Shown piece after piece: positions 18,487 through 22,750 of a DNA stretch of 64,000 bases (positions are counted from its first letter, which is position 1; each line of letters opens with the position of its first letter). The notes under the pieces were generated by a model. It was not told the DNA's origin, ran no database searches, and saw only the letters and a program-made list of their open reading frames with translations. The DNA comes from an uncultured Ruminococcus sp. Lineage in GTDB: Bacteria; Bacillota; Clostridia; Oscillospirales; Ruminococcaceae. Where the stretch lies: positions 186,001 to 250,000 of the forward strand of contig CANQWR010000002.1 in NCBI GenBank assembly GCA_947627625.1, given 5' to 3'. The translations under genes and the position numbers were made by a program.

Positions 18487-19833
18487 ATGGTTAATCTTAA
18501 AGTCGGTCAGGAAGTTGAGCTTGAATACGGCGGAAAAGCCATTGTCAAGAGAGAGATAGGCAGAGGCGGTCAGGGAAGTGTCTATCTTGTCGAATATAAC
18601 GGCATGGAGTGGGCACTCAAATGGTATGACAGCAGTAAATTCAGGGATATAGCCGAATTTCGTAAAAATCTCAAAAATATTGTGAGCGACGGCTCTCCGT
18701 ACAACAAATTTGTATGGCCAAAATATCTCACTAAACAGAGTGAAGATGGTCAGTTCGGATGTCTTACGGAGATGGTCCCGGAGAGTTTTGACTCTTTTGT
18801 GAATATCCTCAGAGATTTCAAGGTGGTGACAGACCCTCTCACTTCGCATCTTGTGAGGAAGCCTGTCAGATTCACAAGGCTCTACGCAATGGTGACGGCT
18901 GCTATAAATATAGTGAACACTTTCCGCAAACTCCACACGGCGGGCAAGTGTTTCCAGTATCTCAACGACGGAGCGTTCTTTGTAAATATCGAGACAGGTG
19001 CGGTACTGATAGGAAGCTGTGACAATATAACTGCGGAGAATATGGACATGGGTATAACGGGCAAACCCGGCTATACAGCTCCCGAATACGTTCTCGGCAA
19101 GGCAAAACCAAGCAGGCAGACTGACTATTACGCCCTTGCGGTAGCCCTTTTCAAGGTCCTGTTCAGGGGAGATCCTCTTGAGGGCAGAAAAGTTGTAATG
19201 GACATATGTCTGACTGAAGAGGACGTTCTGAAACACTACGGCGAAAAGGCACTGTTTGTCATGCACCCCGATGACGATTCAAACAGACCTGTAAGGGGTA
19301 TCCACGACAATATAATAAAATTCTGGGACACCTACCCCGAATATATAAAAGATGCTTTTGTGAAGTCCTTTACGGAGGGTATTTCAGATCCCGAAAAGCG
19401 TCTTGATGAGGACCAGTGGCAGGAGATCTTCATACGCCTGCGTTCAGAGATAATACAGTGTGACATATGCGGCAGAACTAACTTTGTCTCACTGTTTGAC
19501 AAAATAGATTCGACTACATACAAGTGTCCGAAATGCGGATACGACATAGCTACAATACATTTCAGCAACTACGACTGGAGACTGCCCGTGTACAAGGGAC
19601 GTAAATTCTACGAGTGCGAGATAAACCCGTTTTCGGACGATTTTCTCAGTGTCTCGGGAGAAGTGGTTGAGAATAAACTCCGCCCCGGAGTTATGGGAAT
19701 AAAGAACTGTTCTTCGAGAACATGGAAGGCGAAAATGCCTGACGGGCAGTTTCACGATGTCGGTCCGGGAAAGGGTTTCCCACTCTGGCAAGGTCTTGAA
19801 ATAGACTTCGGCAGAGTCAAGGCTAAGATGTGA
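18487..19833 (+). CDS. Protein-kinase-like protein (probable pseudokinase) with C-terminal zinc ribbon, TerY-P-like
   Basis: GRGGQGSVYLVEYNGMEWALKWYD; catalytic region CFQYLNDGAFFVNIETGAVLIGSCDN; PGYTAPEY; CDICGRTN...CPKCGYD. Confidence 0.85.
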   Translation: MVNLKVGQEVELEYGGKAIVKREIGRGGQGSVYLVEYNGMEWALKWYDSSKFRDIAEFRKNLKNIVSDGSPYNKFVWPKYLTKQSEDGQFGCLTEMVPESFDSFVNILRDFKVVTDPLTSHLVRKPVRFTRLYAMVTAAINIVNTFRKLHTAGKCFQYLNDGAFFVNIETGAVLIGSCDNITAENMDMGITGKPGYTAPEYVLGKAKPSRQTDYYALAVALFKVLFRGDPLEGRKVVMDICLTEEDVLKHYGEKALFVMHPDDDSNRPVRGIHDNIIKFWDTYPEYIKDAFVKSFTEGISDPEKRLDEDQWQEIFIRLRSEIIQCDICGRTNFVSLFDKIDSTTYKCPKCGYDIATIHFSNYDWRLPVYKGRKFYECEINPFSDDFLSVSGEVVENKLRPGVMGIKNCSSRTWKAKMPDGQFHDVGPGKGFPLWQGLEIDFGRVKAKM

Positions 19834-19898
19834 TAATGCTGTTGCGGTTTTCTGCAAAACGGTCAAAAACAGCCAAATAGAAAGGGAGTATTTGTTTT

Positions 19899-20723
19899 AT
19901 GAGTAATAAAAATAATAAATCTGCTCAGGAGAGTGTAAAGGAGAATACAAGAGCTTCAAGTCTTCTTGATTTCGACGACGATGACCCGCTTGGTGCGACT
20001 GCCGTCTCGAAAAAGAGCCTTGTAATATTCTTTCTGATAGACACTTCCGGAAGTATGAAGGGCAAAAAGATGGGAGAGCTTAACACCGTCATGGAGGAGC
20101 TTATCCCCGAAATACGCCGTGTTGGTGAAGCCGACACGGACGTTAAAATAGCCGTTCTGACATTTTCAACGGACATAGCGTGGATGTACTCAATTCCGAT
20201 TTCAATTGAGGAGTTTGAGTGGTCAAGGCTTGAAGCAAGCGGTGTCACGAGTATGGGTGCGGCTTTTCAGGAGCTGTCTGCAAGAATGTCAAGAAACAGT
20301 TTCCTGAACTCTCCGTCACTGTCGTTTGCACCCGTAATATTCCTTATGACGGACGGCTATCCGTCTGACGACTACAGAGAGGGACTGAAAGCACTACAGT
20401 CAAACAGCTGGTACAAATTCGGTCTCAAAGCTGCTCTCGGCATAGGAAATGAAGCTAATGACGAAATGCTTGCGGAGTTCACAGGTTCAAAGGACACGGT
20501 TGTACACGCCTATTCGGGCGGACAGCTTGCACAGATGATAAAAGTCGTAGCCGTAACGGCTTCACAGATAGGAAGTAAGAGTATGACTCTCTCCGATGAG
20601 ACAAACAAGGAGCTTACCGAGGAGGACGTAATGACTGCAAAGCAGAAGATGCTCGGTCAGCAGATTCAGGAGCTTGTTAAGCAGGACGATTCCAACGATG
20701 TCTCTTTCGACACAGGTTGGTAA
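19899..20723 (+). CDS. vWA-domain protein, TerY-like
   Basis: MIDAS motif FLIDTSGSM...GVTSMGAAF...LMTDGYPSDD. Confidence 0.92.
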   Translation: MSNKNNKSAQESVKENTRASSLLDFDDDDPLGATAVSKKSLVIFFLIDTSGSMKGKKMGELNTVMEELIPEIRRVGEADTDVKIAVLTFSTDIAWMYSIPISIEEFEWSRLEASGVTSMGAAFQELSARMSRNSFLNSPSLSFAPVIFLMTDGYPSDDYREGLKALQSNSWYKFGLKAALGIGNEANDEMLAEFTGSKDTVVHAYSGGQLAQMIKVVAVTASQIGSKSMTLSDETNKELTEEDVMTAKQKMLGQQIQELVKQDDSNDVSFDTGW

Positions 20724-20757
20724 TCTACAAATATAATCGGAAGGAGTTTTTATTGCC

Positions 20758-21660
20758 ATGTTCAACGGTTTCAGCCATTCCGTCATAGGTCAGAGCCACG
20801 TTCTGAGGAACCTTGTCTGTCAGGACAGTTCCTCACACGAGGTCAATGAAAACTATGCCGTTGCGGTCGTCGCTGACGGTCACGGAAGTAAAAAACACTT
20901 CAGAAGTCACATAGGTTCGGCATCGGCAGTCGAGGCGACTCTTGAGACGATAGCCAAGTTCTACAAAGACCCCGATGATTTTGAGGAAAAATTCTTGCGG
21001 GACAGCAGGCTTGTCACGAGGAGTATTGAAAAGCAGATTCTCTGTGTCTGGAACGACAAAATAATGAAACACCTTGAGGAAAACCCCATAACAAGGGAGG
21101 AGAGAGGTCCTTTTACCCTTGACGAGTTCGACAAAATTCCGCCCGCCTCCTATTACGGAACTACCCTTATAGTGGCGGTTATGGGAAAAAATTTCTCTTT
21201 CGGCTTTCAGATAGGAGACGGCAGTCTTGTAGCGGTGTACGATGACGGCGAAACGGTTATGCCGATTGAGGACGACGAGTCCGCACCCGCAAACGTCACG
21301 GCTTCGATATGCAACTCAAACGCAATAGGTCTTTTCAAGATGTTCAGAATAGACAGCAGACCTCTCCTTGCACTTTTCACGTCAACAGACGGTCTTTACA
21401 CGTCTTTCGGAAGCGACAACGATTTTCTTGACTATCACACAATAATTGCGAGTCAGCTGCCCGATATAGAGACGTTTGAGCCGTCAATCGTTAAAAATAT
21501 GACCAAGAGGACGCATTTCGGAACAGAGGACGATATTTCCTTTTCTTGTGCGTATAATAAAGACCTTGTCGCCGAAAAAGCACAGGTTCTTGTTGACAAA
21601 GTCGCTGAAAACAAGCAGAAGGCAGCCGAGAGAAAAGCTAAGTTGCTGAACAGAATGTGA
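20758..21660 (+). CDS. PP2C-family serine/threonine phosphatase
   Basis: AVVADGHGS, YYGTTLIVAV, QIGDGSLVAV, STDGLYTSF. Confidence 0.9.
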   Translation: MFNGFSHSVIGQSHVLRNLVCQDSSSHEVNENYAVAVVADGHGSKKHFRSHIGSASAVEATLETIAKFYKDPDDFEEKFLRDSRLVTRSIEKQILCVWNDKIMKHLEENPITREERGPFTLDEFDKIPPASYYGTTLIVAVMGKNFSFGFQIGDGSLVAVYDDGETVMPIEDDESAPANVTASICNSNAIGLFKMFRIDSRPLLALFTSTDGLYTSFGSDNDFLDYHTIIASQLPDIETFEPSIVKNMTKRTHFGTEDDISFSCAYNKDLVAEKAQVLVDKVAENKQKAAERKAKLLNRM

Positions 21661-21764: not shown

Positions 21765-21800
21765 GCCGTGTGGAAAAGTCACACGGCAGTTTTTTTGTGC
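21765..21800. terminator. Bidirectional intrinsic terminator
   Basis: aaaaaGCCGTGTGgaaaagtCACACGGCagttttttt. Confidence 0.8.
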
Positions 21801-21806
21801 TGATGT

Positions 21807-22322
21807 TTACTTGATAGATATACCCCAACTCGTTCCGACTTTGTTGTAGAGCTTGAGTTTCGCCTTGCTTCTGTAGACCTTTGAAAACTGCGTTATTCCG
21901 ACAAAAGCGACAACGGACAGGACTGCACCGACAATTATTCCGACGACTCCCTTTATGACAAAAATCGAGAGAACCCAGATTATCACGAGTGCGACTATAA
22001 TAATGGGCAGGTCAAATGTTGCGAAAGTCTTTCCCGTAGCTTTGAGATAGCGACCAATGTCGTCCTCCGTCAGCTTTTCATAGTAGCGTGCAACGAAATC
22101 ATCAGGTCTTATCCATTTGCAGAATTCCTTTACATCAGCGAAAGAAGCGGTGAAGTCCTGATTTGTACGGGACACACGGTATTTGACATTAGTACCGCTG
22201 CCGCCCTGTTCAGTACCCATGATATGTACCACAGAACCCATTTTGGCTTGATTCGGCAGGGACTTTGTAACAACATACTTTCTGTCAATAGCTTCTTCGA
22301 TATCGTAAAGCATGAATGCCAT
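21807..22322 (-). CDS. Hypothetical protein with two C-terminal TM helices
   Basis: ATG 22322 with RBS aggaag; hydrophobic LPIIIVALVIIWVLSIFVIKGVVGIIVGAVLSVVAFVGI. Confidence 0.7.
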   Translation of the reverse strand: MAFMLYDIEEAIDRKYVVTKSLPNQAKMGSVVHIMGTEQGGSGTNVKYRVSRTNQDFTASFADVKEFCKWIRPDDFVARYYEKLTEDDIGRYLKATGKTFATFDLPIIIVALVIIWVLSIFVIKGVVGIIVGAVLSVVAFVGITQFSKVYRSKAKLKLYNKVGTSWGISIK

Positions 22323-22750
22323 ATAGTTTCTTCCTTTCATATAGATTTTTATGTTCCCTTGTATTATTATAACATACTTTGGGAATAATTTCAATAGCAA
22401 GTCAAGAAAATTTATAAAAATTGATATAATATTTTCTGAATTATTTTTTCATAAGCGGTGTACACTCAAAAAGCGGAGGAGTTACGACAGAGGGAAGTCA
22501 CCTCAGCAACACAAAAAGCGTGTACACAATCGACTACTATAATTATAACATACTTCACAGACAGATGTCAAGTTTATATTTAATGATTTTCTGCAAAAAT
22601 TTTCCGACGCTGAAAAAATAGTGTTTTTTTATATTTTTTATATTTTTTATATTTTAATATTTTAATATTTGAATATATATTTTAATATATTTATTATAAC
22701 ACTCCCCCCGTATTCTTTCGGAGACACGAGGGGAGTGAATAGAAAACAGA

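Follow-up and report, generated by a model that had tools for sequence, protein, structure and literature searches.

Organization of the locus

The window, i.e., the whole stretch of 64,000 nucleotides from an uncultured Ruminococcus sp. that was analyzed, contains three consecutive forward-strand genes (18487-21660) encoding a kinase-like protein, a vWA protein and a PP2C-type phosphatase, in this order (Table 1). An earlier note on this DNA had described the genes as such, and the motifs given there (FQYLNDGAFF, IGSCD, CDICG, CPKCG, DTSGS, and DGHG) are found exactly in the translations of the window. Pfam matches were obtained for the vWA protein (VWA, E 2.7e-10) and the phosphatase (PP2C_2, E 1.7e-33), and the kinase-like protein matched Pkinase slightly below the cut-off of 31.7 bits (30.0 bits, E 4.5e-7). 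Good Shine-Dalgarno-like ribosome binding sites, which are consensus matches only, precede all three genes. Together with the promoter-like site upstream and the terminator-like hairpin at the end, the three genes look like a single transcription unit.

Table 1. Features of the kinase-like/vWA/PP2C locus and its neighborhood in the window.
Feature	Position	Strand	Basis
Gene upstream of the [FeFe]-hydrogenase-like gene	13813-14595	+	
[FeFe]-hydrogenase-like protein (Fe_hyd_lg_C, 4Fe-4S, FeS domains)	14756-16447	+	
BspA-type LRR protein with non-LRR C-terminal region, 5' of the triad	16510-18270	+	
Promoter-like TTGACA-17-TATACT, TG before second hexamer, 5' of the kinase-like gene	18308-18336	+	consensus match only
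Kinase-like gene (pseudokinase, 448 aa: kinase fold, zinc ribbon, FHA-like C-terminal domain)	18487-19833	+	ORF, Pfam
Degenerate catalytic loop FQYLNDGAFF (HRD Asp = Tyr158; Asn position = Ala163)	18952-18981	+	profile alignment
Degenerate DFG region LIGSCD, residues 174-179 (DFG Asp = Ser177; Asp179 kept)	19006-19023	+	profile alignment
Zinc ribbon (Cys325, Cys328, Cys347, Cys350)	19459-19536	+	
C-terminal beta domain, FHA-like by fold search	19576-19830	+	model, Foldseek
vWA gene (274 aa; MIDAS residues intact: DTSGS, GVTSMG, TDG)	19899-20723	+	ORF, Pfam
PP2C-type phosphatase gene (300 aa; metal-binding motifs intact: DGHG, GDG, TDG, EDD)	20758-21660	+	Pfam
Terminator-like hairpin at the end of the unit, strong	21765-21787	both strands scored	consensus match only
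Small protein with predicted membrane segments, without Pfam match	21807-22400	-	

The [FeFe]-hydrogenase-like protein encoded further upstream resembles sensory types. Its gene and the one preceding it are kept directly 5' of the triad at six further loci (L079, L081, L084, L085, L088, and L090), and the hydrogenase-like gene is also conserved ahead of the triad in L009. In R. albus, a sensory hydrogenase was proposed to be linked to a Ser/Thr phosphatase (PMC6776011). By analogy with this proposal, the triad might receive an input from H2 or the redox state via the hydrogenase-like neighbor.

Loss of catalytic residues in the kinase-like protein

Residues were assigned by means of a family HMM profile aligned to solved kinases, including GRK2. 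In GRK2, 'RDLKPAN' is the counterpart of the family stretch 'qDlndGn' and 'ISDL' that of 'icdn', which identifies Asp158 as the HRD Asp, residue 163 as the position of the metal-binding Asn, and Asp177 as the DFG Asp. The window kinase carries Tyr, Ala, and Ser at these three sites. Thus, the replacement of the catalytic Asp by Tyr and of the DFG Asp by Ser, as reported in the earlier note, holds in the alignment to solved kinases, and a shifted alignment restoring the Asp residues was ruled out by the family alignment and the HMM alignment to kinases. The third replacement, previously read as Asn to Ala, stands only in part: Ala163 does occupy the metal-binding Asn position, but Gly is already found there (YQDLNDGGFF) in all close active-type relatives, including copies from eleven other genera of the family, and Asn is retained only in distant canonical kinases of ~38% identity (YQDLNNGNFF...ICDNDN). 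The change is therefore one of an inherited Gly163 to Ala, and, judged from these alignments, the two Asp losses are the only changes special to the window copy among the three sites. The term active-type denotes the presence of both Asp residues by sequence alone.

As also stated before, the Gly loop (GRGGQG) and the ATP-site Lys45 are kept. A kinase counts as a pseudokinase if the Lys, the HRD Asp, or the DFG Asp is missing; the window kinase has lost both Asp residues while keeping Lys45 and is by its sequence a genuine pseudokinase, which with an intact GxGGQG loop could bind ATP. The predicted full-length model (mean pLDDT 73, poor in the loops of the C-lobe) matches protein kinases in the PDB. 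An annotation as anti-phage protein was rejected, as only weak PD-T4-6/mad6 matches confined to the generic kinase stretch were obtained.

Beyond the kinase fold, the protein features a zinc ribbon, which is common to pseudokinase and active-type copies, and a C-terminal beta domain, which was modeled well on its own (AF2 pLDDT 90). Among its top 50 Foldseek matches, FHA proteins form the majority, with modest similarity (probability up to 1.00, TM 0.4-0.64, best E 0.013). The phosphothreonine-binding Arg, Ser, and Asn are not recognizable by eye in the alignment (A3), which renders phosphopeptide docking uncertain. The domain is conserved to 0.77 in pseudokinases vs. 0.76 in active-type copies.

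An active-type paralogue in the same genome

The 2.04-Mb genome from which the window derives (87% complete) encodes a second kinase copy outside the window at C2:166747-168087, inverted, 36 kb from the window triad and 60% identical, in which both Asp residues are present (YQDLNDGGFF, VCDCDN). The search for a second, active paralogue that the earlier note had recommended thus led to an active-type triad close by, and the assumed phosphorylation of substrates from elsewhere fits such a paralogue. At this second locus, a zinc-ribbon BspA-type LRR protein is followed by the kinase, the vWA protein, and a PP2C (L003 5061-5924). The latter is extremely diverged, with an end branch of 2.79 in the PP2C tree vs. 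0.37 for the window PP2C, and nevertheless has all motifs intact.

The layout of LRR protein, kinase, vWA, and PP2C recurs with the active-type motif across eleven other genera. This quartet, with the zinc-ribbon BspA-type LRR protein, is conserved in many genera of Oscillospiraceae (loci L160-L176). The kinases of these quartets and of the active-type loci of the genus uniformly feature Gly in place of the metal-binding Asn and retain both Asp residues. These loci are direct relatives of the triads described here, as the active-type locus of the own genome shows the quartet layout. The window locus differs from them in its pseudokinase, in an upstream LRR protein (16510-18270) of another type than the zinc-ribbon LRR protein of active-type loci, and in a promoter-like site of the triad's own. 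Homologues of the small protein encoded downstream of the window triad adjoin the loci described here in 12 places, four of them directly 3' of the vWA gene at active-type loci without PP2C (L078, L086, L087, and L107).

Pseudokinases in the genus Ruminococcus

The census covered 101 genomes of the genus, 18 of which (the window's and 17 relatives) contain a pseudokinase copy. All 18 possess the active-type paralogue as well, and in the single-copy genomes of the genus that were checked the kinase of this clade is always of the active type. The motifs of the pseudokinases are diverse, comprising FQYLNDGAFF..IGSCD (window), YQYLDDGG..VGGCD, YHQMSRNS..IGGCD, YQ[YN]LSDGG..VCDCD, YHALSDGG..MSDCD, and FQGLSEGS..VSDCD. 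In a tree calculated without the motif columns, 16 pseudokinases form one clade (support 100/99) and the group L085/L088 is placed among active-type copies. Two origins are favored by this topology; a single origin was not rejected by the AU test (p 0.067). An orthologue of the window copy above ~66% identity was not found among 126 genomes of the genus. Outside the genus, the kinase-like protein of L184 (G179:C112, 1274-2533; FYALYDNSIIIN, IVSC) has diverged strongly and is possibly a further pseudokinase of this family; its genome also holds an active-type copy.

The pseudokinase clade has lost residues at positions 28, 30, 150, 158, 160, 176, 177, 180, 192, and 193, which map to the Gly loop, the catalytic loop, the DFG region, and the activation segment. 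Altered Gly loops (GxGRQS, GxGIHD) occur in the other pseudokinase copies, and residue 161 varies between D, E, and R. Retained throughout the clade are K45, D179, the APE motif, D213, and the four zinc-binding Cys residues. Between related pseudokinases, dN/dS amounts to 0.06-0.13 vs. 0.015-0.05 for the active-type copies of the same genomes, both being approximate values with dS often ~1 or above. Judged from these ratios, the pseudokinases are under purifying selection. With intact frames in 18 genomes, they are conserved in the manner of functional genes, and a pseudogene or an assembly error was ruled out for the window kinase by conservation, dN/dS, and intact frames.

Association with PP2C and vWA proteins

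The pseudokinase has a PP2C gene as neighbor in 17/17 evaluable loci and a vWA gene in 6/17. Five active-type loci (G026, G030, G061, G050, and G091) have no PP2C while the vWA gene is kept, and G026, G050, and G061 possess no other PP2C of this type than the one beside the pseudokinase. For the vWA gene in G026, G030, and G061, dN/dS is 0.02 at the pseudokinase locus vs. 0.07-0.13 at the active-type locus; by this measure, the conserved vWA of these relatives of the window is the copy at the pseudokinase locus. The catalytic motifs of PP2C are intact in both classes of loci, with QDD replacing EDD at active-type loci. A reciprocal loss, with dead PP2C or vWA proteins at active-type loci, was ruled out by the intact motifs there. 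Taken together, neighbor counts and motifs indicate that the pseudokinase and an intact PP2C travel together and that kinase and phosphatase are partly split between the loci. This linkage shows a functional association with PP2C rather than direct binding. In the TerD-linked group described below, the active-type locus retains its own PP2C; the division in trans is thus not universal.

Relation to TerY-P triads and other known systems

TerY-P triads consist of a vWA protein, a PP2C, and a kinase with a C-terminal zinc ribbon (PMC11090510); they are also described in PMC4978471, and both publications cite Anantharaman et al. (2012). The resemblance to this arrangement pointed out in the earlier note is confirmed by a vWA protein with a MIDAS motif (DxSxS...T...D; here DTSGS, GVTSMG, TDG), an adjacent PP2C with its metal-binding residues, and a Ser/Thr kinase-like protein with kinase-fold matches and the four zinc-ribbon Cys residues. 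The kinases of Ter-linked triads in the genus, ~38% identical to the window kinase, add to the resemblance. Unlike in TerY-P, the HRD Asp (Tyr) and DFG Asp (Ser) are missing, and the window triad has a paralogous second triad of the active type. Neither did the suggested tie to a Ter (tellurite) system find support in the own genome: TerD and TerC searches gave no match at E<=0.01 in the assembly, which is 87% complete. By gene content and motifs, the window locus represents a TerY-P-like kinase/vWA/PP2C triad that arose by duplication and whose kinase has become a pseudokinase.

In the sister pseudokinase group, TerD is linked in 8/8 evaluable loci, with the order pseudokinase, PP2C, phosphomannose-isomerase-like protein, TerD, and AIM24. 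Furthermore, TerD occurs in 17/17 of the other pseudokinase genomes vs. 20/83 of those without a pseudokinase (Fisher p 3e-8, a value inflated by shared ancestry), and distant canonical triads with adjoining TerD also exist in the genus.

Modules of a kinase (with zinc ribbon and beta-rich domain), a PP2C, and a stand-alone vWA protein were linked to GTPase-centric conflict systems (PMC7159879). The window locus shares with them a zinc-ribbon and beta-strand-rich kinase adjoining PP2C and vWA genes; in contrast, the published modules come from actinobacteria and are considered catalytically active, and no GTPase-centric genes were identified beside the window locus. Bacterial Ser/Thr pseudokinase families, namely ActPs1-3, GLW, CP1, DYD, DLHK, and EssB, have been reviewed (PMC12599244). 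These families are likewise conserved, each having lost particular catalytic residues and being of unknown function, but by text search none is linked there to vWA, PP2C, or zinc. The window protein differs in being cytosolic, in its zinc ribbon, and in its pairing with PP2C. No description of a pseudokinase version of the TerY-P triad, or of a pseudokinase connected with TerY or Ruminococcus, was found in the open-access literature. The triad as such is known; its pseudokinase version is provisionally new.

Proposed function

The conservation of the change in 17 relatives, always alongside an active-type copy, suggests a probable regulatory function of the dead kinase. The earlier note had suggested an allosteric or sensor role; from the comparison of genomes, a partner of the phosphatase is the better fit. 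On an evenly balanced judgment, the window protein would be a non-catalytic kinase paralogue that assists PP2C in a docking or regulatory capacity and works in trans against the active-type kinase. One of the two duplicated kinases lost its HRD and DFG Asp residues, and in most relatives residues of the Gly loop and the activation segment as well, whereas purifying selection preserved the residues that bear the fold, the Lys of the ATP site, the zinc ribbon, and the FHA-like domain. The pseudokinase may then dock via its zinc-ribbon/FHA-like part onto partners of the active-type kinase and hold or target PP2C there, so that the pseudokinase-PP2C unit of one locus would counteract, in trans, the phosphorylation by the active-type kinase of the other. 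More tentatively, and with somewhat less than even confidence, the pseudokinases might represent a conserved bacterial class of dedicated, kinase-shaped targeting subunits of PP2C opposing the active-type paralogue, i.e., a switch split over two loci.

The coexistence with an active-type copy in 18/18 genomes and the preserved N-lobe, Lys45, and C-terminal domain would also suit a STRAD-like protein that activates the active-type paralogue allosterically or dimerizes with it, instead of a phosphatase partner. We regard this as rather unlikely, since the conserved neighbor is PP2C (17/17), the active-type kinase is encoded elsewhere in the genome, and PP2C is gone from the active-type locus in five genomes.

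A remaining enzymatic activity of an unorthodox kind, e.g., nucleotidyl transfer or catalysis by a moved acidic residue, is improbable for the window kinase. In the window copy, the GRGGQG loop is preserved along with Lys45, Asp161, and Asp179, the last of which is invariant, and the metal-binding Asn is missing even from active-type copies; nevertheless, HRD and DFG Asp are both lost, sister copies lack glycines of the Gly loop and are variable at residue 161, and no residue invariant in the pseudokinase copies alone suggests a new active site.

A sensor of ATP or a metabolite, in which ATP bound without hydrolysis would switch PP2C or vWA through a conformational change, appears highly improbable: the Gly loop and Lys are retained in the window copy and Lys45 in all pseudokinase copies, but the altered Gly loops of the others indicate that ATP binding would be no common feature. 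Finally, a functionless, decaying duplicate is scarcely credible, as the two to four times faster evolution compared to active-type copies and the long branches are opposed by reading frames that are intact in 18 genomes, a dN/dS far lower than 1, the promoter-like site and ribosome binding sites, and a conserved operon partner.

Significance

Few bacterial Ser/Thr pseudokinases have known partners. For the pseudokinases proposed here as partners of the phosphatase, the genome comparison points to PP2C as a specific partner and to the paralogous kinase of the same cell as a specific antagonist. Moreover, genomes with one active-type copy and those with an active-type and a pseudokinase copy constitute a natural comparison. 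With partner, antagonist, and natural comparisons at hand, the function of a bacterial pseudokinase would become directly testable. The organisms degrade fiber in gut and rumen. This may also offer an entry point to TerY-P triads, whose kinase-phosphatase logic remains largely hypothetical.
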